Positions 1,348-13,028 of a stretch of 57,712 bases of DNA are shown here, piece by piece. How positions within the stretch are numbered: the first letter of the stretch is position 1; every line of letters begins with the position of its first letter. This stretch comes from an uncultured Desulfuromonadales bacterium (GTDB taxonomy: Bacteria > Desulfobacterota > Desulfuromonadia > Geobacterales > CAIOGM01): contig CAIYUY010000277.1 of assembly GCA_903929485.1 (NCBI GenBank), positions 1-57,712 on the forward strand, read 5' to 3'. Position numbers and translations under genes: made by a program. The notes beneath the pieces were generated by a model that had not been told where the DNA came from, did not search any database, and saw only the letters and a program-made list of their open reading frames with translations.

Positions 1348-3363
1348 ATGATTTTCTTGAGAGAGAGCCTTTCTCCCGCCGCGCTACTCGTCGTAGTCGG
1401 CATGCTGCTGTCTACCTGCTCCGGTTTTCCTGCTCTTTTGTATCCTCGACGCGACGGAAGGGGTCAGAAGGTGGCCACGCTGTTCATGATCGTCGGATCG
1501 GTGGCTGGGTGCGCCGGCGCGCTGATGATTCTCCTGGCCGGGAGTTCCCAGCGGTATGTCATTGATGGCGGATTCTTCCTGGGGGGGAGCGAGTGGGGAG
1601 TCGATCCACTCTCGGCGTTTTTCCTCATTCCTCTCTTCCTCATGGCCGGTTGCTGTTCACTGTATGCCGTGGGATATTTTCCCCAGGCGAAACATCCGTC
1701 TTCAGCGCCGCGGCTCACCTTTTTCCTGGGTCTCCTGGTCGCGTCGGTGGCTCTGGTCTTCACGGCCCGTGACGGCATTCTCTTCCTGGTGGCGTGGGAA
1801 ATCATGGCGCTGGCCTCTTTTTTCGCCATGACCACTGAAGATCAAAAAAAAGAGGTTCAGGAGGCGGGACTTCTTTTTCTGGTCGCCGCCCATATGGGAA
1901 CACTTTTCCTCTTCGCGCACTTCTCCCTGCTCAAGGGGGAGGGCGCCACATTCGCCTTTCCCGGGCCGGCCACCCTTGACGCCGGAACCCTGTCGGCCAC
2001 GGCGCTTTTTCTTACCGCCCTGGCGGGGTTTAGCTTCAAGGCCGGGATCATGCCGCTCCACATCTGGCTCCCCTCGGCCCATGCCGCGGCTCCCAGCCAC
2101 GTCTCGGCGCTCATGTCAGGCGTCATTATCAAGACCGGCATCTACGGCATGGTTCGGGTTACCACCTTTTTTTATCACCTTCCAAACTGGTGGGGGATGA
2201 TGCTCCTGACGCTGGGGATCGTTTCAGCCGTGGTGGGGGTCCTTTTCGCCCTCGGCCAACACGATCTGAAGCGACTCCTTGCCTACCATAGCATTGAAAA
2301 CATCGGGATCATCGTCATGGGGGTGGGGCTTGCCCTCCTGGGGAGGAGTTCAGGAAATATCCCGCTGCAACTCCTGGGGATGGGTGGAGCGCTTCTTCAC
2401 CTTCTCAATCACGCCATCTTCAAGGGGCTTCTTTTCCTGGGGGCCGGGTCGGTGATTCATGCCGCCGGGAGTCGGGAGATTGACCTCATGGGAGGGCTGG
2501 CCAAGCGGCTCCCCTTCACCGCTACCTTCTTTCTCGTGGGGGCGGCGGCCATCTGCGGGTTGCCGCCGCTTAACGGTTTTGTTAGTGAATATCTCATCTA
2601 CATGGGGCTGTTTCGTGGTGTCATCGAGGTGGGTGGTGGGGCGACCGCCGCCGTTTCACTCATGGCTTCGGCGGTCCCGGCCCTGGCGTTGGTGGGAGCC
2701 CTGGCCCTTGCCTGCTTCGTGAAAGCCTACGGAATTGTTTTCCTTGGGTTGCCCCGTCGGGAATCCGTGACGCAGCCCCACGAGGCGGGACTGGTCATGC
2801 TTCTCCCCATGGGATTGCTGGCTCTGCTCTGCATCCTCTTGGGGCTCTTTCCTCAGGGTGTTGTTCGGCTTCTGGGGCCGGCGGTGGCCGGTGGGCTTCC
2901 CGGTTCCAGCCAAGCGGTCGCCGAGCTGACGCTCCTGGCCCCCTTGGGGTGGATCACCGTCATGGGGCTCGTTCTGCTCCTGCTGGTCGCCTTCATCTCC
3001 ATTTTTTCTCTCCGACGGCGTCCCGGCGGCGTTGTTACCGCGGTCACCTGGGACTGCGGCTACCTTCATTCGACTCCCCGGATGCAGTACACAGCCTCCT
3101 CCTTTGCCGCTCTGCTGGTGGATCTGTTCGGCGGAATCCTCCGTCCCCGGCGTCATGGGCCGAAGGTTACGGGCCCGTTCCCGGCGCCCTCCAGCTATTC
3201 CAGCCACGTCCCCGAGGCGGTGCTGGAGCTGATATATCTGCCGATTCTCAAGTGGGGGAACGAGCTCCTCATGCCGCTGAGAAAACTTCAGCATGGCCGG
3301 ATACCGCTCTATATCCTCTACATCTTCGTCACCGTCATCGTCCTGTTGGCCCTGGCGCCGTGA
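1348..3363 (+). CDS. HyfB/NuoL-like proton-translocating membrane subunit
   Basis: A 671-residue polytopic membrane protein of the Mrp/NuoL/HyfB antiporter-like family, the ion-pumping arm of complex I-like enzymes. The hallmark segment with KAGIMPLHIWLPSAHAAAP lies near residues 231-249 (TM lysine, then H-x-W-L-P-x-A-H), and LLAYHSIENIG near 310 carries the second conserved patch. About 15 hydrophobic segments run the full length; a Lys-rich stretch and a last TM close the protein. The ATG follows GGGAGG. It is the first gene of an Ehr-type cluster continuing at 6513, but is separated from it by ccdAB, a binding protein and a kinase. The 220 bases upstream show no clear promoter. Role in a redox-driven ion pump is by family. 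Confidence 0.85.
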   Translation: MIFLRESLSPAALLVVVGMLLSTCSGFPALLYPRRDGRGQKVATLFMIVGSVAGCAGALMILLAGSSQRYVIDGGFFLGGSEWGVDPLSAFFLIPLFLMAGCCSLYAVGYFPQAKHPSSAPRLTFFLGLLVASVALVFTARDGILFLVAWEIMALASFFAMTTEDQKKEVQEAGLLFLVAAHMGTLFLFAHFSLLKGEGATFAFPGPATLDAGTLSATALFLTALAGFSFKAGIMPLHIWLPSAHAAAPSHVSALMSGVIIKTGIYGMVRVTTFFYHLPNWWGMMLLTLGIVSAVVGVLFALGQHDLKRLLAYHSIENIGIIVMGVGLALLGRSSGNIPLQLLGMGGALLHLLNHAIFKGLLFLGAGSVIHAAGSREIDLMGGLAKRLPFTATFFLVGAAAICGLPPLNGFVSEYLIYMGLFRGVIEVGGGATAAVSLMASAVPALALVGALALACFVKAYGIVFLGLPRRESVTQPHEAGLVMLLPMGLLALLCILLGLFPQGVVRLLGPAVAGGLPGSSQAVAELTLLAPLGWITVMGLVLLLLVAFISIFSLRRRPGGVVTAVTWDCGYLHSTPRMQYTASSFAALLVDLFGGILRPRRHGPKVTGPFPAPSSYSSHVPEAVLELIYLPILKWGNELLMPLRKLQHGRIPLYILYIFVTVIVLLALAP

Positions 3364-3407
3364 CCATCTTAACGACACTATCGGAGAAGACACTGTCAAA
3401 TATTTAG

Positions 3408-3436
3408 TTGTGATTCGGCATGGATGCGGATATCAT
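3408..3436 (+). promoter_or_regulatory. Sigma-70-type promoter for ccdAB
   Basis: TTGTGA (3408-3413), 17-base spacer, TATCAT (3431-3436), 34 bases upstream of the ccdA start. It gives the toxin-antitoxin pair its own transcription inside the hyf-like cluster. Found by eye. Confidence 0.5.
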
Positions 3437-3469
3437 GTGCGCATGGAGAATACACATAAGGAGATCGCA

Positions 3470-3718
3470 ATGCAAACCGGTTTTTTTGATCACCGTGCTC
3501 CCAAAAAATCAGCCAACCTTAGCATTAACAGTGACTTGCTCCGTCAGGCCAAGGAACGGCACATTAACCTTTCTCAGACACTGGAGTTGCAGCTTGCCGA
3601 GTTACTGCGGGAGGAAAAGCGTCGTACATGGCAGGAGGAGAACGGAGAGGCTATTGAAGATTATAATCGCCGGATAGAAGCTTGCGGCACGTTCAGTGAC
3701 GGCTTGAGGCGTTTCTGA
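3470..3718 (+). CDS. ccdA: CcdA-type antitoxin
   Basis: An 82-residue CcdA-family antitoxin. The N-terminal part (KKSANLSINSDLLRQAKE, residues 12-29) is the ribbon-helix-helix DNA-binding region, and the C-terminal part with W54-QEENGEAIEDYNRR is the CcdB-binding tail that ends in GTFSDGLRRF, as in the family. The ATG at 3470 has AAGGAG just upstream; the longer upstream reading frame lacks any such signal and would run through the promoter. The stop overlaps the ccdB ATG by one base, so the pair is translationally coupled. It should repress its own promoter at 3408-3436. Confidence 0.9.
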   Translation: MQTGFFDHRAPKKSANLSINSDLLRQAKERHINLSQTLELQLAELLREEKRRTWQEENGEAIEDYNRRIEACGTFSDGLRRF

Positions 3719-4032
3719 TGGCGCAGTTCGATGTCTATCTGAATTCAAACCCTGAAACAAAACAGTCCGTTCCCTATTTACTTGATCTGCAAGCGGATTT
3801 ACTGATTAACCTGACAACGCGTGTTGTTGTCCCCTTGGTTGCCACCTCCGCCATGGGCAAAGTTGCCAAGCACCTCAACCCTCAATTTAAAATTAAAGAA
3901 ACCTCCGTGGTTATGTCAACTGTTGAACTGGCCGGCGTCAATCTGCATCTTCTGGGTGAAAAAGTTTGCTCACTCAAGGAAATGCGCAACGAGATTATTG
4001 CTGCGCTTGATTTTTTGTTCATCGGTTTCTAG
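3718..4032 (+). CDS. ccdB: CcdB-type gyrase-targeting toxin
   Basis: A 104-residue CcdB-family toxin, expected to poison DNA gyrase when CcdA is lost. The fold is marked by VPYLLDLQADLL near residue 18, RVVVPL near 35 and the C-terminal RNEIIAALDFLFIGF. The E. coli toxin ends in a Trp-Gly-Ile triad that contacts GyrA; here the Trp position is Ile (F-I-G-F). Some known homologues also lack this Trp, so activity is not excluded. The gene sits between hyfB-like and the binding-protein/kinase pair, an insertion into an otherwise contiguous cluster. Confidence 0.9.
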   Translation: MAQFDVYLNSNPETKQSVPYLLDLQADLLINLTTRVVVPLVATSAMGKVAKHLNPQFKIKETSVVMSTVELAGVNLHLLGEKVCSLKEMRNEIIAALDFLFIGF

Positions 4033-4070
4033 GGCTCAAGTCCACATCAGCGTACCCGCGGGATTAAACG

Positions 4071-4916
4071 ATGATTGTCAAACTTTGCAACTACGTTTCA
4101 GCGATTATGATTTTCTGCGCCTTCGCCCTGTTTCATCTCTGCCATGCTCCACCCGCATCCGGAGCCGATTACACCTTCGGAATCGTCCCTCAGTATGATC
4201 AGAGGCAGATGTTCGCCACCTGGAAACCGATTCTGGATGAACTGGAGAAAAAGACAGGGCTTTCCTTCAGACTGGTTTTTGCCCCCACCATTCCGGTTTT
4301 TGAAAAGGAATTTCTTAAAGGGGCTTACGACTTCGTCTACCTGAACCCGTACCACCTGCTGAGAGCCAATAAATCAGCCGGTTACCTCCCCATTGTCCGC
4401 GACCGCGCCAATCTTCGCGGCGTACTGGTAGTCCGCAAGGATAGCCCCATCAAAAGCCCAACCGAGTTGAATGGTAAAACTGTCGTCTTTCCCGCTCCCA
4501 ACTCCATGGGGGCGTCTCTTCTCATGCGCGCGGATCTCTCCAATCTGTTCCATATTCATTTTACCCCGCTGTATGTGACATCTCACGATTCCGTGTACCT
4601 TCACGTGGCGAAAGGGTTGGCGGAGGGGGGAGGTGGCGTGGAAAAGACGTTGCAGGAGCAGGAAAAGGCGGTAAAGGAGAGCCTGAAGGTCATCCATGAA
4701 ACACGTCCCATTCCGTCTCATCCCGTGGCTTCCCATCCCAGAGTCGTCGCCGCCATTACCGAAAAGGTCCGAAGAGCCTTCATGGAGATGGAAACGACAG
4801 CCGGCGGCCGGGAGCTGTTGGCGAAAATACCCATGAATCATCCCGTATCCGCGGCGCTCAAGGATTACGCACCCATGATGAAGTGGGGTTTGGACGCCTT
4901 CTGGGTGAAGGAATAA
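4071..4916 (+). CDS. PhnD-like phosphate/phosphonate-type substrate-binding protein
   Basis: A 281-residue periplasmic binding protein of the PhnD/PtxB family. A signal peptide spans about residues 1-31 (hydrophobic stretch IMIFCAFALFHLCHA, then GA-DYTFG). The mature part starts with FGIVPQYD and carries KGAYDFVYLNPYH near residue 90 and SPTELNGKTVVFPAPNS near 129-145, both typical. No ATP-binding or permease genes follow. Instead a histidine kinase starts 5 bases after the stop, so it probably works as a ligand-sensing partner of the kinase, like other binding protein-kinase pairs. The ligand is unknown; phosphonate or phosphate is only the family default. The start has a weak ribosome binding site. 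Confidence 0.8.
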   Translation: MIVKLCNYVSAIMIFCAFALFHLCHAPPASGADYTFGIVPQYDQRQMFATWKPILDELEKKTGLSFRLVFAPTIPVFEKEFLKGAYDFVYLNPYHLLRANKSAGYLPIVRDRANLRGVLVVRKDSPIKSPTELNGKTVVFPAPNSMGASLLMRADLSNLFHIHFTPLYVTSHDSVYLHVAKGLAEGGGGVEKTLQEQEKAVKESLKVIHETRPIPSHPVASHPRVVAAITEKVRRAFMEMETTAGGRELLAKIPMNHPVSAALKDYAPMMKWGLDAFWVKE

Positions 4917-4920
4917 GTGC

Positions 4921-6513
4921 ATGGGGTTAAGAGTTAAAATTTTCCTCCCTATTTTTCTGGCAAGCATCATCCCGGCTGCCTATCTGACCGCCGTCTGGAT
5001 ACCTCGATGGCGGTCGGGGGTGGAAGCCATCTACCAGGAGTCGGAGAAAAGACATCTTGACAGCGTGGCCGAAGGTCTCGTCCCGTTGCTGCTGGGAAAC
5101 CAGCTGGACGGAATCTACGGCACTCTTGACGCTCTCCTGAAAAAGAACGGTAACTGGCTGGAAATCCGGTTGTTCGATTCAAAGGGAAGAGTGCTGTATC
5201 CTCTTGCGGTCGGACGTCTCTCCAAGGGGCATGAAGCGGATGAGCTCAGGATTCTGTCCCGGGAGATTCAGTATTTGGGCTCCAGGTTGGGTAAGCTGGA
5301 GGTAAAGGTGGATCTCACCAGGCAGTTGAACGGGATCAGTAAGTGGTGCTCGAATCTTCTGACCATGCTGCTCATCGTAACGCTCCTCTTTCTCCTCTCC
5401 ACTGTTGTCGTTCTTGAACAGATGGTAAGAAAACCGATACGCTCTCTCTCCGAAGCAGCCAAAAGATTGGCCGATGGTGATTACCATGAGCCGTTGCCGC
5501 AGCCGAAAAACGATGAGGTGGGAGTACTCATTAAAAGCTTTGCCGCCATGCGTGACGCCCTGGGATCCCATGCGGAAAGGCTTTCCCGTGCGAACAAACA
5601 ACTGGAGCGGTTGAATGAGACTCTAGAACAGCGCGTTCAAGATCGAACCGCGGAGCTGAATGAAAAAAATTTCGAAGTGCGGCAGGCCTATGACGACCTG
5701 AAAACAGCTCAGGGGCGACTCCTTCAGCAGGACAAACTGGCCTCCATCGGACAACTGGCCGCCGGCGTGGCCCATGAGATAAATAATCCCATGGCGTTCA
5801 TTACGAGCAATCTTGGTGCTCTTGACGAGTATGCCGGAACCATCCACCGATTCTGCACGTTTCTCCTTGATATGGTTGGAAAAAACTCCAGTGAAGCAGA
5901 GCTCGGTTTGCTGAGGGATGAAATGGAGAGGGAGGATGTCGAATCCATCCTGGAGGATCTTGGCCCGCTCATCGCGGAATCCAAAGAAGGAGCCGATCGA
6001 GTCAGGCGAATAGTTCTTGATCTGAAGGATTTCGCCCGCGCGGAAGAGAGCGGTTTTGAGCTGACGGACTTGAATGAGTGTATCCGCGTCACCGTCAACA
6101 TGGTCGGCAATGAGATAAAGTATGTCGCCGATCTTGACCTGCAACTGCATGAAATTCAGAAAATAAGCTGTTCTCGCCATCAGATCAACCAGGTGCTGGT
6201 CAACTTGCTGGTCAATGCGGGGCAGGCCATTGAGACGCATGGTGTTATAGCCGTGACTTCGCGGCAGGAAGATGAGCAGATCATTCTGACCGTCAGTGAT
6301 ACCGGTCGCGGCATGACGGAGGAGATCAGCAGGCGGGTTTTCGATCCTTTCTTCACGACCAAGAAGGTGGGGGAAGGAACCGGTTTAGGGCTCAGCATCA
6401 GTTATGGTATCATCAAAAAACATGGCGGCGAAATCACGGTGGCAAGCGAGCCGGGAAAAGGTACGATATTTACCGTCAGGCTGCCCATGAACGGGGGAGC
6501 CGTACTCTCATAA
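4921..6513 (+). CDS. Membrane sensor histidine kinase (HAMP, HisKA, HATPase)
   Basis: A 530-residue transmembrane kinase. TM1 is about residues 7-27, a periplasmic sensor region of about 110 residues follows, TM2 is about 142-167, then HAMP (168-220), a coiled coil (KQLERLNETLEQRVQDRT), and the catalytic core. H-box GVAHEINNP has the phospho-acceptor His near 284; N-box HQINQVLVNLLVNAGQA near 420; G1 DTGRGM, F-box FDPFFTTK and G2 GTGLGLSIS complete the ATPase. GAAGGA precedes the ATG. No response regulator is nearby. The stop overlaps the hyfC-like ATG in a TAATG junction, so kinase and membrane complex are translationally coupled. It is likely tied to the preceding binding protein. Confidence 0.9.
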   Translation: MGLRVKIFLPIFLASIIPAAYLTAVWIPRWRSGVEAIYQESEKRHLDSVAEGLVPLLLGNQLDGIYGTLDALLKKNGNWLEIRLFDSKGRVLYPLAVGRLSKGHEADELRILSREIQYLGSRLGKLEVKVDLTRQLNGISKWCSNLLTMLLIVTLLFLLSTVVVLEQMVRKPIRSLSEAAKRLADGDYHEPLPQPKNDEVGVLIKSFAAMRDALGSHAERLSRANKQLERLNETLEQRVQDRTAELNEKNFEVRQAYDDLKTAQGRLLQQDKLASIGQLAAGVAHEINNPMAFITSNLGALDEYAGTIHRFCTFLLDMVGKNSSEAELGLLRDEMEREDVESILEDLGPLIAESKEGADRVRRIVLDLKDFARAEESGFELTDLNECIRVTVNMVGNEIKYVADLDLQLHEIQKISCSRHQINQVLVNLLVNAGQAIETHGVIAVTSRQEDEQIILTVSDTGRGMTEEISRRVFDPFFTTKKVGEGTGLGLSISYGIIKKHGGEITVASEPGKGTIFTVRLPMNGGAVLS

Positions 6514-7421
6514 TGGTTGACATGATTATCCATCTCCTTCTCGTCTGCACCATGCCGCCGCTCCTCTTGGGGATCATCGGCAAGAGCAAGGCCGCCTTCG
6601 CCGGGCGGAGCGGCCCACCCTATCTTCAATCGTACTACGACCTGGCCCGTCTGTTCCGGAAGGGGATGGTTTTAAGTGGCACAACCACCTGGCTTTTCCG
6701 GGCCGGTCCCATCATCACCCTGGCTACGACCCTGGCGGCCTCACTCCTCATCCCCTTGGGAAACCATCCCCCCCCCGTCTCCTTCCAGGGTGATATGATC
6801 CTCTTCGCCTATCTCCTGGCCCTGGGGCGTTTCGCCACGATTCTGGCGGCGCTGGATACCGGCTCCAGCTTTGAGGGGATGGGTTCCGCCAGGGAAGCGA
6901 CCTATGCGTGTCTCACCGAGCCGACTCTCTTCTTCTCCCTGATCGTTTTGGCGCGGCTTACCGGTTCTCTCTCCCTTGCCGGCATGTTGACCGGCCCCCT
7001 GGGGGCGGTCTGGGCGACCTCCGGTGCATCACTCCTTCTGTTGGTGGCCGCCCTCTTCATACTCCTCCTGGCGGAGAACTGCCGAATTCCCTTCGACGAC
7101 CCCACTACCCACCTGGAGCTTACCATGATCCACGAAGTCATGACTCTTGATCACAGTGGGCCGCTCCTGGGGTGCGTACAGTACGGGGCGGCCCTCAAAC
7201 TCTTCGTCCTGGGAGCCTTCTTCATTCAGATTGCCCTGCCGTTAAGGAGCGGCGACGGGATGACCGACTGGGGGCTTTTTATTGCCTCCATGTTTCTCCT
7301 GGCAATCGTCATCGGCACGGTGGAGTCCACCATGGCGCGGCTCCGGTTGACCAGGGTTCCTCAACTCCTCATTGGGGGGAGCATATTGTCGGCTTTCGCC
7401 CTTCTCCTCATACTGAGGTAA
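6513..7421 (+). CDS. HyfC/NuoH-like membrane subunit
   Basis: A 302-residue membrane protein of the NuoH/HyfC family, which links the redox arm to the ion-pumping arm in complex I-like enzymes. Conserved loops are visible: SGPPYLQSYYDLARLF near residues 30-46, DTGSSFEGMGSAREA near 114-128, and ENCRIPFDDPTTHLELTM near 188-205. About eight TM segments. Its start overlaps the kinase stop (TAATG), and the hyfE-like gene begins 3 bases after its own stop. Function in an Ehr-type complex is inferred from family and neighbours. Confidence 0.85.
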   Translation: MVDMIIHLLLVCTMPPLLLGIIGKSKAAFAGRSGPPYLQSYYDLARLFRKGMVLSGTTTWLFRAGPIITLATTLAASLLIPLGNHPPPVSFQGDMILFAYLLALGRFATILAALDTGSSFEGMGSAREATYACLTEPTLFFSLIVLARLTGSLSLAGMLTGPLGAVWATSGASLLLLVAALFILLLAENCRIPFDDPTTHLELTMIHEVMTLDHSGPLLGCVQYGAALKLFVLGAFFIQIALPLRSGDGMTDWGLFIASMFLLAIVIGTVESTMARLRLTRVPQLLIGGSILSAFALLLILR

Positions 7422-7424
7422 GTA

Positions 7425-8069
7425 ATGAATTCGCTCATCGATCAGCTCCTTGTCCTCGTGATGCTTCTTAATTTCCTCGGCCTCGCCACGAGCCGGATGC
7501 ATCTCGCCATCCGGACCGTCGCCTTTCAGGGGGTAATCCTGGGGCTCCTGTCGGGGATAACCCACTCATTGACACTGCATTTGGCGCTCATCACCGGGGG
7601 GATCATCTTCGCCAAGGGGTTCTTCATCCCCTGGCTCCTCTTCAGGGCCATGCGCAGGGTGGAGATCAGGGAGGAGGTTGAGCCGTTTTTGAGCCATACC
7701 GCCACGCTCCTCCTGGGCGCCATCGCCACCGCCCTGGCCTTCGCCTTCGCCGCCAAGCTCCCCCTGATCCCGGAGCATCAGGGACTTCTCTTTGTCCCCG
7801 CCGCCATCGCAACCATCATCACCGGTTTTCTCGTCCTGACCACCCGGAAGAAGGCGATTACCCAGGTCATCGGCTACCTGATCCTGGAGAACGGGATCTT
7901 CATCTTCGGCCTCCTTCTTTCCGAGGTCATGCCGGTCATGGTGGAAGCCGGGGTGCTCCTGGACCTCATCGTGGGGATCTTTGTCATGGGGATCATCATC
8001 AACCAGATCAGCCGGGAGTTCTCCTCCATGGATACCTCGCGGCTCACGGTGCTTCGGGAGGAACAGTGA
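7425..8069 (+). CDS. HyfE-like membrane subunit
   Basis: A 214-residue protein with about six to seven TM helices, matching the hydrogenase-4 component E family (NuoK-like C-terminal part). Short charged loops such as TTRKKAITQVIGYLILENG (about residues 138-156) carry the conserved Glu of the NuoK-type helix. It lies tightly between hyfC-like (3-base gap) and hyfF-like (GTGA overlap of 4 bases), so the three are one translational unit. Expected to form part of the ion path of the complex. Confidence 0.85.
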   Translation: MNSLIDQLLVLVMLLNFLGLATSRMHLAIRTVAFQGVILGLLSGITHSLTLHLALITGGIIFAKGFFIPWLLFRAMRRVEIREEVEPFLSHTATLLLGAIATALAFAFAAKLPLIPEHQGLLFVPAAIATIITGFLVLTTRKKAITQVIGYLILENGIFIFGLLLSEVMPVMVEAGVLLDLIVGIFVMGIIINQISREFSSMDTSRLTVLREEQ

Positions 8070-9505
8070 TCTATCTTCTCCTGCTTCTGGTTCCTCTTCT
8101 GGGCGCCTTCATCTCCTGGTACATCCGGTCGAATCTGCGACGGCCCCGGATTCTCCCTCTGTTCGGTATCGCCCACTTCATCCTGACCCTGACGGCGTTA
8201 TCCCTCCGGCCTGCTCCGGCTTTTTCCGGGTGGATCGCCCTGGACCCCCTGGGGATGGTGGTGCTGCTCAGCATCAGCACCCTGTATCTTGCCTGCTCGC
8301 TGTACGCCGCGGGATACCTCCCTTCCCGTCACGAACGTTCCAACCAGGTTCTCTGTTTCGGCACGCTCCTCTGCCTCTCGGCCATGACCCTGGTCACGCT
8401 GGCTCATCATCTGGGGCTTCTCTGGGTGGCCATGGAGTCCACCACCCTGAGCATGGCTCCGCTGATCTATTTCAACCGGAACGCCCGCTCCATCGAGGCC
8501 ACCTGGAAATACATGATCATCTGCTCCGTGGGGATCGCCCTGGCGCTTCTGGGGCTCTTCTTCCTGGCCTACGCCACCCTGGTGGCCGGCAAGGAGGCTA
8601 CCCTCCTCCTGGAGCCGCTCATTGCCGGGGCGCGAAACCTTTCCTCCGTCTGGCTGAACGCCGCCTTCATCTTCCTCCTGGTGGGCTTCGGCACCAAGAT
8701 GGGGCTGGCGCCGCTCCATACATGGAAGCCGGACGCCTACGGCGAGGCGCCCGGTCTCGTGGGGGCGCTCCTGGCCGGGGGACTCGTTAACTGCGCCCTC
8801 CTGGGGGTGATCAGGGTCTATCAGATCTGCATGGCCTCCGGTGATATCCGTTTCTATCAGCGGACATTGGTGGGGATGGGGCTCCTCTCCATGGCCTTCG
8901 CCGCCGTTTTCATGCTCCGTCAGTCCGACTTCAAGCGGATGTTGGCTTACTCCAGCGTGGAACATGTGGGGATACTGGTCATCGCCCTGGGGGTAGGCAA
9001 GGGGGCTCTTTGGGGGGCGCTCTTCCATGTCATCAACAACGGGCTGACCAAGGGGGTTCTTTTTCTTGCCGCCGGAAATATTCACCGCTCCTACGGGACC
9101 AAGAACGCCGACAGGGTTCGGGGGCTGCTTCAGAGGCTTCCGCTCTCCGGCGGGCTTTTTCTCGCGGGGTTCTTCGCCATTACCGGTTCCCCCCCCTTCA
9201 GCCCTTTTCTCAGCGAATTCGCTCTTATAACCGGGATCTTCGGCGCGGGACATCCCCTGGTGGCGTCACTTCTTCTCCTTTTTCTTGCGGTCATCTTCAT
9301 GGGGATGGCCAACACGGTTCTCCCCATGATGATGGGGAGTGCTCCCCGGGAGGCCGGCAGGGTTGTGGGGTATCGCGACCAGTTCTTCACCGTCGCCCCT
9401 CCCCTGGCGCTGATGGGTGTTATCCTGCTCCTGGGGGTATGGCAGCCGGCGCCGCTGCGGCGGCTGCTGACGGACGCCGCCCGACTCCTGGAGGCAGGGT
9501 TATGA
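8066..9505 (+). CDS. HyfF/NuoN-like proton-translocating membrane subunit
   Basis: A 479-residue antiporter-like subunit, second of two such pumps in the cluster. GFGTKMGLAPLHTWKPDAYG (residues about 207-226) has the conserved TM Lys and the H-x-W-x-P-D-A pattern; LAYSSVEHVG lies near 294; ESTT near 122 carries the TM5-type Glu. The start is GTG at 8066, overlapping the hyfE-like stop as GTGA, with GGGAGG upstream. The stop overlaps the start of the large-subunit gene (ATGA). No fused domains. Confidence 0.85.
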   Translation: MIYLLLLLVPLLGAFISWYIRSNLRRPRILPLFGIAHFILTLTALSLRPAPAFSGWIALDPLGMVVLLSISTLYLACSLYAAGYLPSRHERSNQVLCFGTLLCLSAMTLVTLAHHLGLLWVAMESTTLSMAPLIYFNRNARSIEATWKYMIICSVGIALALLGLFFLAYATLVAGKEATLLLEPLIAGARNLSSVWLNAAFIFLLVGFGTKMGLAPLHTWKPDAYGEAPGLVGALLAGGLVNCALLGVIRVYQICMASGDIRFYQRTLVGMGLLSMAFAAVFMLRQSDFKRMLAYSSVEHVGILVIALGVGKGALWGALFHVINNGLTKGVLFLAAGNIHRSYGTKNADRVRGLLQRLPLSGGLFLAGFFAITGSPPFSPFLSEFALITGIFGAGHPLVASLLLLFLAVIFMGMANTVLPMMMGSAPREAGRVVGYRDQFFTVAPPLALMGVILLLGVWQPAPLRRLLTDAARLLEAGL

Positions 9506-11007
9506 ATCTCTCCGCCAGTGTCAAGACCCTCCACAACGGCGGCGCCATCCATCTTGCGGATATTCCGCTTCTGAATGTGGACGATCTCTGTGAAACGATC
9601 CTGGAAGCCACCGATCACGGCTGGCGGGTGGCCTCCTACTTCGGCGTCCCCGAGGGAGATGAGGTGACCCTCTATGCGGTTCTTGGGTACAGGGAGGAGG
9701 GGATCATAGCGTTGCTCCGGAGCAGGGTGCGGGAGAGCTTTCCCTCTCTGGCGACTCTCGCCCCCCAGCTGCAGCTCTTCGAGCGGGAAATTTGGGAGCA
9801 GTGCGGGATCACGCCGGAAGGGCACCCCTGGCTTAAGCCGCTCCGCTTCCTACCCCATCCCCGCACGGGGAAGCGACCATTGCCCGGAGCCATGGAGCAG
9901 TACCGGGTGGAGGGAAACGAGATTCATGAAGTGGCGGTGGGACCGGTGCATGCGGGGATCATCGAGCCGGGACATTTCCGTTTTCAGTGTCATGGCGAGG
10001 AGATCTTTCACCTGGAGCTATCCCTGGGGTACCAGCACAGGGGGATCGAGGCGGGGGTGGTGGGGGGACCGCATCCGGCGACTCTGTCCCGGATGGAGAC
10101 GGTGGCCGGCGACAGCACGGTGGGGCACACCCAGGCTCACTGCATGATCATGGAGTCTCTCGCCGGGCGCCGGGTTCCGGAGAGGGGGGAGGCGCTCCGG
10201 GGAATCGCCCTGGAGTTGGAGCGGCTGGCCAACCATACGGGTGATCTTGGCGCCATTGCCGGTGATGTGGGGTACCTCCCCACCGCCTCCTTCTGCGGTC
10301 GGATCAGGGGCGATTTTCTCAACATGACCGCGCTCCTCTGCGGCAGCCGTTTCGGTCGGGGCCTGCTTTGTCCCGGCGGGACGAACTTCGATCCGGGGGA
10401 GCGGCAGCAAGGTGACCTGCTGCTGCGGGTCGCCTCCGTGCGAAAGGAGCTGACTGATGCGGTGAATCTTCTTTGGTCGACCCCGTCGGTCATGGCGAGG
10501 CTGGAGAAGTGCGGCGCCGTTTCCCTCGGGGATGCCCATGAGCTTGGTCTTGTGGGCCCGGTGCTGCGGGGGTGCGGTGGGGGGGGAGACGTTCGGCAGG
10601 AGCACCCCTTCGGAATTTACCGGAAGAAGAAGATTCCCGTGGCCACCGCCATCGGCGGCGATGTTCACGCCCGGGCGATGGTGAGATGGCTGGAAATTGA
10701 ATATTCGCTCAATTTTATCCGGGAGCTGCTGGAGCAACTGCCGGGAGGGGCGACTCGCAGCCACCCTCATGCCGTATCCCCCTTGGCTCCGGAGACGCTG
10801 GCCGTGGCTTTTACCGAGGGGTGGCGCGGCCGAATCTGTCATGTGGCTCTTACCGATCTCCAGGGCCGTTTTCGGAAGTACAAGATCACTGATCCGTCGT
10901 TTTTTAACTGGTCCGGTCTCGCCCGTGCGCTGCGTAATCAGCAAATTTCCGACTTTCCTCTCTGCAACAAGAGTTTTAATCTCTCCTACTGCGGGTTCGA
11001 TCTGTGA
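9502..11007 (+). CDS. HyfG-like large subunit lacking the nickel ligands (Ehr type)
   Basis: A 501-residue protein with a NuoC-like N-terminal domain (about 1-160, with REIWEQCGI) and a NuoD/HycE-like domain (about 165-501, with LELSLGYQHRGIE). True group 4 [NiFe] hydrogenases bind nickel by two C-x-x-C motifs. Here the first site reads V-A-G-D-S (Ala202, Ser205) and the C-terminal site reads N-L-S-Y-C-G (Ser495, Gly498), so by my alignment all four Cys are replaced; Cys497 is one place off. This fits Ehr (energy-converting hydrogenase-related) complexes, not hydrogen evolution. The start at 9502 (ATGA overlap) is preferred; the frame is open further upstream but would run through hyfF. No NuoB-like small subunit is adjacent. 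Confidence 0.85.
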   Translation: MNLSASVKTLHNGGAIHLADIPLLNVDDLCETILEATDHGWRVASYFGVPEGDEVTLYAVLGYREEGIIALLRSRVRESFPSLATLAPQLQLFEREIWEQCGITPEGHPWLKPLRFLPHPRTGKRPLPGAMEQYRVEGNEIHEVAVGPVHAGIIEPGHFRFQCHGEEIFHLELSLGYQHRGIEAGVVGGPHPATLSRMETVAGDSTVGHTQAHCMIMESLAGRRVPERGEALRGIALELERLANHTGDLGAIAGDVGYLPTASFCGRIRGDFLNMTALLCGSRFGRGLLCPGGTNFDPGERQQGDLLLRVASVRKELTDAVNLLWSTPSVMARLEKCGAVSLGDAHELGLVGPVLRGCGGGGDVRQEHPFGIYRKKKIPVATAIGGDVHARAMVRWLEIEYSLNFIRELLEQLPGGATRSHPHAVSPLAPETLAVAFTEGWRGRICHVALTDLQGRFRKYKITDPSFFNWSGLARALRNQQISDFPLCNKSFNLSYCGFDL

Positions 11008-11042: not shown

Positions 11043-13028
11043 ATGTCCGTTTTGCCGCAGCCCCAGCCCCAGCCAGGCCCGGTAAGGCCGAAGCTCTCCA
11101 TAGCCCATAAGATTTTGTTTTTCACCACCCTCTCCATTGTCGCCGGTCTCCTCATGGTGGGGGGGGCGGCGCTTTTTCTGGCAAAAAAAGAGCTGGTCTC
11201 CCTGCAGAAAAAAAACAGTATGAACTATGCAGTGATGATCGCCGAGGATATCCGGGGGGTCATGCTGGCGGGAAACGCCCGACTGCTGGATGAGAAGATC
11301 TCCCAGGAGGTGACCGAACATGGGGGGGCCGTCTCGCCCGTACTCTACAACAGCCGGGGAGTGGCGCGACGGAGCGGGGAGGCGGGAAATTCCACAGTCG
11401 CCTTGGCTCTCCGGAGCGGTCTGCCTCAAGTCGAGGAGAAAGTGGAAAAAGGGATTCACGTACTGGAAACCTATTTTCCTCTTGTCAACGAACTCCGCTG
11501 CCGGAAGTGCCACGACAGGGGGGTGCGGGTCAACGGCGTGCTAAGACTGACCAGCAGCATCGAGCAGGCGTACGACGCCACGAAAAACTCGGCGCTGCTC
11601 CTCTCCATCTGTGGCGTGGCGTCGCTGATCGCAAGCATCATCATGCTGACGATAGTCCTCAGAGTCATGGTGTTGAGAAAGATTAACGACTTTGTCGCCC
11701 AGATAGCCAATCTCTCCCACGGAGACGGTGATCTGACCCGGCGACTGGACAGTTCGGGTAATGACGAGCTTGCCGAGGCGAACCGACAGTTCAATCACTT
11801 TTTGGACAGGCTGGACACGTTGATCTCATATGCGGCGCTGACGGCGGTACATGTCGCCGGTTCGGCCGGGATCATTCAGGCCTCTTCCCAGAGTTTGTCC
11901 AGGGTCGTGGGAGATGCCGCCGCCCAGGCCACGTCAGTGGCCACCGCGGGAGAGGAGATGTCCGCGACGTCCAACGACATTGCCCGCAGTTGCGCCTTGG
12001 CCGCGGAGAGTTCCCAGCATTCCAACCAGCTCGCCTTTGAGGGGGGAGAGGTTATCAACGCCACCATTCAAGGGATGATGCGAATTGCCGATCGGGTGAA
12101 GGAGACGGCGACGGTGGTGGAAAACCTCGGGCGGCGTTCCGATCAGATTGGCGAGATCATCGGGACCATCGAGGATATTGCCGATCAGACCAACCTCCTG
12201 GCCCTCAACGCCGCCATCGAGGCGGCCCGGGCGGGTGAGCAGGGGCGGGGTTTCGCGGTGGTTGCCGATGAGGTCAGGGCGCTGGCTGAGCGGACGACTA
12301 TCGCAACCAGGGAGATCGGCGGGATGATCAAGCTGATCCAGAATGAAACAAGGGTCGCCGTGACCTCCATGGAGCAGGGGGTTGCGGCGGTTACCAGGGG
12401 GACGGAAGAGGCGGCCAGGTCGGGAGAGGCGTTGCAGGGGATTCTTCGTCAGGTGGATGGGGTGACGCTGCAGATTCATCAGATCGCCACCGCGGCCGAG
12501 GAGCAGTCGGCGACCACGAACCAGATCAGTTCGCATATCCATGCCATTAATGATGTGTTTGTCAACACCGAGCAGTCGGCGAGAAACAGCTCCTCGGAAG
12601 CGGAAAAGCTGAACCGTCTCTCCACGGATCTTCAGGAGGCGGTGGGAAAGTTTAAGACAAAAGAGAGTGATATTCTGATGCTGTCGGTTGCGGCCAACGA
12701 CCACAGGATGTTCGTCAACAGGATCCGGGCAGCGGTGCAAGGTGATATTTTCATCGAAGTCGCCTCACTGCCGGATCATCATGGCTGCCGTTTCGGTATC
12801 TGGCATGACGGTGATGGTCATCGATCCTGTGGCGATCTGAGCTCATTCAAGGCGATTGCTGCGCCCCATGAACGGATCCATCTCCTTGCCACGAAGGCGA
12901 TTGACGCGGCCAACACCGGTGAACGGACCAAGGCGCATCAACTGATGCAGGAGATCGAGCAGACCTCCCACGTGATCATGGCGCAACTGGAAAAAATCAA
13001 GCAGGAGTATCGTGGGGGGAAGGGATAG
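11043..13028 (+). CDS. Methyl-accepting chemoreceptor with c-type heme motif and CZB domain
   Basis: A 661-residue chemoreceptor. TM1 is about residues 24-47, the periplasmic domain about 48-182, TM2 about 184-209, followed by HAMP, the coiled-coil signalling region with its conserved hairpin ([19 protein letters not shown] near 380) and a C-terminal zinc-binding CZB domain ([24 protein letters not shown]). The periplasmic domain has C153-R-K-C-H157, a C-x-x-C-H heme c attachment motif, as in heme-bearing Geobacter chemoreceptors. It begins 35 bases after the large subunit with GGGAGG, so co-transcription with the Ehr-like genes is likely, and it ends at a terminator. Redox or gas sensing is inferred. 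Confidence 0.88.

Follow-up and report, generated by a model that had tools for sequence, protein, structure and literature searches.

The stretch of DNA analysed here (the window, 57,712 nucleotides) is the entire contig C277 of a draft genome of an uncultured Desulfuromonadales bacterium (5.36 Mb in 369 contigs). It carries a gene cluster for an Ehr-type complex in the order hyfB-ccdA-ccdB-phnD-kinase-hyfC-hyfE-hyfF-hyfG, as an earlier note had read it from the letters alone and as coordinates and Pfam matches bear out:

1348..3363, plus strand: hyfB, EhrA-type antiporter-like subunit of the NuoL/HyfB family (PF00361, E 7e-51)
3470..3718, plus strand: ccdA antitoxin, in the insertion (PF07362, E 4e-27)
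3718..4032, plus strand: ccdB toxin, in the insertion (PF01845, E 1e-33)
4071..4916, plus strand: PhnD-like periplasmic binding protein, phosphonate-binding type (PF12974, E 9e-56)
4921..6513, plus strand: HAMP histidine kinase paired with the PhnD-like protein (HisKA/HATPase_c)
6513..7421, plus strand: hyfC, EhrB-type NuoH-like subunit (PF00146, E 8e-34)
7425..8069, plus strand: hyfE, EhrC-type NuoK-like subunit (PF00420, E 2e-4, a weak match below the cut-off)
8066..9505, plus strand: hyfF, second antiporter-like subunit (PF00361, E 4e-51)
9502..11007, plus strand: hyfG, encoding EhrL, a fused NuoC-NuoD-like large subunit (PF00346 and PF00329)
11043..13028, plus strand: methyl-accepting chemotaxis protein (MCPsignal, Mcp40H-20 sensor, CZB)

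Membrane subunits of HyfB, HyfC, HyfE and HyfF type, by which an Ehr complex is recognised, were all found. The best NCBIfam model for hyfB is hydrogenase 4 subunit B and the match for hyfF is hydrogenase 4 subunit F, each below the model cut-off; orthologues in the congeners are 75-79% identical for hyfB (three congeners) and 86-93% for hyfE. On the upstream side the PIN pair of the earlier note did not hold up, the 165-aa ORF at 473-970 being without a match to any Pfam or NCBIfam model. In G002 and G001 (L077, L078) the transcription terminator gene rho adjoins hyfB; in the present genome that side holds this ORF and the contig end instead. The downstream chemoreceptor was confirmed, and its gene occupies the position of ehrS in relatives, that is, 3' of hyfG. 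Both it (86% identical) and the yaiI-like gene that follows it recur in G002, equally far from hyfG, and both are absent from that place in G003.

The earlier note saw no small subunit beside the cluster and offered two explanations, a subunit encoded elsewhere or a module that works without one. For the contig the observation stands, since no PF01058 (NuoB/HyfI) match was found across the whole of C277; for the genome it does not. The genome-wide profile search that the note had proposed returned four PF01058 proteins. On C158 lies a hydrogenase small subunit of HybO type, its N-terminus signal-like and its neighbour gene of HybA type, on C235 the NuoB of a nuo locus that also holds the only further PF00361 and PF00346 matches of the genome, and on C102 a group-3-type small subunit adjoining its own NiFe large subunit. 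The fourth is a stand-alone fusion of HycF+HycG type on C89 (21,039-21,797, minus strand, counted from the conserved ATG). Its C-terminal half matches MbhJ (E 8e-33) and HycG (E 4e-30), its N-terminal half, with eight cysteines, matches HycF (E 2e-13), and all four congeners (the present genome and G001, G002 and G003) retain the 8 + 4 cluster cysteines. By these features the C89 protein is of EhrS type, and it is orthologous to the ehrS genes that reside in Ehr clusters.

In the four congeners ehrS and the large-subunit gene stand on separate contigs. A contig break as the cause of the split was ruled out: ehrS is interior to C89, hyfG lies 9.5 kb from the nearer end of C277, and the split recurs in four assemblies. 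The same observations exclude that ehrS lies just outside a misassembled junction, which the earlier note had named as a refutation. In G025, a control for contig breaks, hyfG and ehrS each lie about 200 bp from a contig end, and there the two genes only looked split. Adjacency of ehrS and hyfG is a habit of gene order and does not define the Ehr complex.

As a habit it is widespread. In 76 of 80 named EhrL loci, which span Geobacter, Planctomycetes, Verrucomicrobia, Acidobacteria, Spirochaetes and Elusimicrobia, ehrS lies directly 3' of hyfG; of the four others, L103, L174 and L178 are situated near contig ends, and L175, from a Geobacter genome, lacks both hyfB and ehrS within reach, as do the split genera g12 and g19 described below. 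A strong EhrL was found in 85 of 97 related genomes, 82 of which also have a strong EhrS. The remaining three are G027 and G042, where hyfG is broken by contig ends, and G093, where no ehrS lies near hyfG. That the module works here without a small subunit, through another electron partner, is therefore most improbable in our view, even though C277 lacks a NuoB-type gene and G093 has hyfG without a detectable ehrS: EhrS accompanies EhrL almost throughout, two of the three genomes that depart from this owe it to contig breaks, and an intact, conserved EhrS orthologue is present in this genome and in all congeners.

The descent of the two subunits agrees. In trees of EhrL and of EhrS (43 sequences each, with moderate branch support) the four congeners group together, beside the same six relatives in both (G088, G078, G090, G015, G032 and G012), and EhrL and EhrS distances over 28 Geobacterales rows correlate with a Mantel r of 0.63, which 0 of 5000 permutations reached. 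Vertical descent alone predicts such agreement, so it shows that the protein encoded on C89 is the original EhrS orthologue, relocated, and not that it continued to bind EhrL. Continued function is argued for by selection: pN/pS between congeners is 0.21-0.28 for ehrS and 0.24-0.30 for hyfG, so that both genes are under equally strong purifying selection, with all cluster cysteines kept. Every hyf and ehrS comparison that involves the present genome gives a low pN/pS (the dN/dS of larA with G002 was left out because of a clearly faulty alignment).

The new surroundings of ehrS are the same throughout the genus. In relatives the order is hppA / larA-glcD-glcF-xre, with mobB elsewhere in their genomes (the larA match is missing in G005 and the xre match in the G043 stretch), whereas four of four congeners have hppA / larA-glcD-ehrS-mobA-mobB. 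Here ehrS stands exactly where relatives carry glcF, and glcF-xre is intact at another place in all four congeners (glcF 78-79% identity). Because this gene group is common to all four and unlike that of the relatives, we conclude that ehrS left its place after hyfG and joined the glcD-glcF junction, together with mobA and mobB, once, in the ancestor of the genus. In G001 and G003 some tens of bases separate glcD from ehrS. In L005 (9900-10080), repeats of the GCAAAGACGCAAAG kind lie in a glcD-ehrS gap of about 350 bp; such repeats could have had a part in the rearrangement. In G002 an extra gene separates glcD from ehrS (L080:5373-7340); its product is a histidine kinase that shares 47% identity over 312 aa with the one inserted in the window. 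Both halves of the split Ehr have thus taken up kinase genes.

Food for speculation is whether the position after glcD has a meaning for electron transfer. EhrS could have been recruited in place of GlcF, with the oxidation of a 2-hydroxyacid (D-lactate or glycolate) by GlcD feeding Ehr directly, and the order of the genes in the four congeners, with ehrS where relatives have the Fe-S partner of GlcD, would suit this. We nevertheless regard it as unlikely. The intact glcF in all four genomes could still serve GlcD, and neighbourhood alone is a weak guide where mobAB joined the same gene group and where a kinase parts glcD from ehrS in G002. In addition, the donor potential would lie above what is usual for such pumps. 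That the glcF position gave the genus a new electron input, from GlcD through EhrS into the Ehr ion pump, appears to us similarly improbable.

The relocation of ehrS is shared by the genus; the interruption of the cluster is not. In G001, G002 and G003 hyfB and hyfC are about 30-110 bp apart with nothing inserted, and among the four congeners only the present genome has the 3.15 kb insertion of ccdAB, phnD and the kinase gene, as emerged from the comparison with relatives that the earlier note had suggested. The note called these four genes foreign, which fits one pair and not the other. CcdB has its closest copies in another family (84% and 81%, against 66% and 64% for the congener copies) and the GC content of the ccdAB stretch is 0.43-0.50, compared with 0.60-0.63 for the hyf genes; because of both, ccdAB looks like a mobile module. 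For PhnD and the kinase, G001 has a pair with 82% and 74% identity and G002 one with 75% and 56%, at another place in both genomes. Since an orthologous pair is present in two sister species, phnD-kinase is, on this evidence, a native pair of the genus rather than a foreign one, and the insertion appears to have two separate origins.

One might ask whether the insertion is real. In a draft of 369 contigs, with hyfB directly before hyfC in three congeners and phnD-kinase elsewhere in two of them, an assembly chimera with a true order hyfB-hyfC has to be considered. We judge it to be rather improbable: a search for repeats at both junctions found none that was convincing, hence neither shows a repeat able to explain a misjoin, and the stop codon of the kinase gene overlaps the preserved start of hyfC (TAATG), which looks like a natural operon fusion. 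If the chimera were real, the conclusion on ehrS would be unaffected.

The large subunit itself has an altered active site. The best solved relative of EhrL is HycE of E. coli (7z0s_E, E 5e-62), and in profile alignments, from which all EhrL positions were read, the CxxC pairs of HycE correspond to A202/S205 and S495/G498, so that all four NiFe-ligand cysteines are replaced. The 13 diverse EhrL relatives that were aligned all lack cysteine at the four sites. EhrL accordingly has the large subunit without NiFe-binding cysteines that is used to define the Ehr family (PMC6349859; PMC4378227) and lacks the RxCGxC and DPCxxC motifs of group 4 [NiFe] hydrogenases. As the four ligand positions are without cysteine, it should not be a NiFe hydrogenase. 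The Nqo4 residues His38 and Tyr87, which bind the quinone head group and mark a quinone-reducing complex I (NuoD), align with I154 and G203, and in this alignment the canonical complex I quinone residues are absent.

In published work, which uses the name Ehr for the family, ion pumping was suggested, with a formate dehydrogenase as partner in some lineages (PMC6349859). High abundance of the Ehr subunits during growth on formate was reported for G. sulfurreducens PCA, in a study which states that their physiological role there had never been investigated (PMC7894505). More recently (2026), the Ehr of G. sulfurreducens KN400 was held to be non-functional for want of a NiFe site (PMC13194489). 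We would argue against this view because the substituted cavity is conserved in 13 diverse EhrL and pN/pS is low in the genus. A related question is whether the cluster is decaying in the present genome, the insertion having broken the operon so that Ehr is no longer made. The insertion, confined to this genome, does part hyfB from hyfC-G, and the verdict on KN400 would fit such a fate. We hold this to be unlikely, given that every reading frame is intact, that hyfC keeps its start, overlapping the kinase stop, that pN/pS remains low in all hyf and ehrS comparisons with this genome, and that the subunits are abundant in strain PCA.

Comparable systems help to place the cluster. It shares with the Ehr of Geobacter (GSU0739-45, EhrA/B/C/L/S) the subunit set by family, a large subunit without NiFe ligands and a small subunit of HycF+HycG type, and its closest named loci are those of Geobacter, Geomonas and Pelobacter; it differs in that ehrS lies outside the cluster, in larA-glcD-ehrS-mobA-mobB, and that hyfB occurs only once, with ccdAB and phnD-kinase between it and hyfC. 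Formate hydrogenlyase-1 / hydrogenase-3 of E. coli (Hyc; 7z0s) provides in HycE the best solved relative of EhrL and in HycG and HycF some of the best solved relatives of the two EhrS halves, but the present cluster has no NiFe ligands, no formate dehydrogenase gene and two antiporter-like subunits. With MBH/MBX of Pyrococcus and respiratory complex I it has in common the large subunit, the N2-type Fe-S subunit, the NuoH-like subunit and antiporter-like subunits; unlike these, it has no NADH module, and its EhrL has neither the NiFe ligands nor His38 and Tyr87 of Nqo4.

Taken together, we are confident that this is a known Ehr complex whose small-subunit gene has moved and was not lost, and into whose cluster ccdAB and phnD-kinase were inserted later, in this lineage only; of the two explanations in the earlier note, that of a subunit encoded elsewhere is the one borne out, its context being conserved in four congeners, and the other finds no support next to an intact orthologue. 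After the move in the genus ancestor, mobile ccdAB and the genus's own phnD-kinase would have come between hyfB and hyfC. The complex is probably a ferredoxin- or dehydrogenase-fed ion pump with a putative acceptor. EhrS, made from its remote operon, would dock on EhrL and receive electrons from a low-potential donor, which might be ferredoxin in its reduced form or a molybdenum dehydrogenase, for instance formate dehydrogenase. These would pass along two HycF-like [4Fe4S] clusters and the HycG-like [4Fe4S] cluster of EhrS to an acceptor in the EhrL/EhrB cavity, putatively menaquinone as the likeliest, and the products of hyfB and hyfF, the two antiporter-like subunits, would then move ions across the membrane.

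The donor could be sought among molybdenum enzymes. In G078 a 647-aa molybdopterin oxidoreductase is encoded between hyfG and ehrS, with an IclR-like regulator gene before it (L084:13854-15797), and is a candidate electron-input enzyme for Ehr. This gene and the company of ehrS with mobAB in the present genus hint weakly at a molybdenum-enzyme donor. The present genome was found to hold no orthologue of it, only distant paralogues (~26% identity), and no molybdenum enzyme beside its Ehr cluster.

Split Ehr loci occur beyond this genus. Genera g12 and g19, which belong to another family, have hyfC-E-F-G without a nearby hyfB or ehrS, and ehrS lies alone elsewhere (L085/L086 in G054, L091/L092 in G075, and L181-L188); in G054, a single-contig genome, EhrL is encoded at 3.24 Mb and EhrS at 0.49 Mb. 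This split apparently arose independently of the one described here. Besides its split locus, G075 retains another Ehr cluster that is complete; in G062 there is a second EhrL-EhrS pair, with the two genes adjacent. In G093 (L279, G093:C201, ~4514-5880) the last 19 codons of hyfG are duplicated with a 390-aa ORF between the copies and no ehrS, which may reflect either a genuine loss of the small subunit or a fault in the assembly.

What we describe is a known but uncharacterised complex with its genes in a new arrangement. It also carries a caution, namely that a subunit absent from a cluster on a draft contig is not thereby absent from the genome. With ehrS relocated, the two halves of Ehr could come under separate genetic control. 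Ehr complexes are widespread, and a lineage whose electron-input subunit has come to be encoded within a metabolic gene cluster gives a natural clue to their partners.
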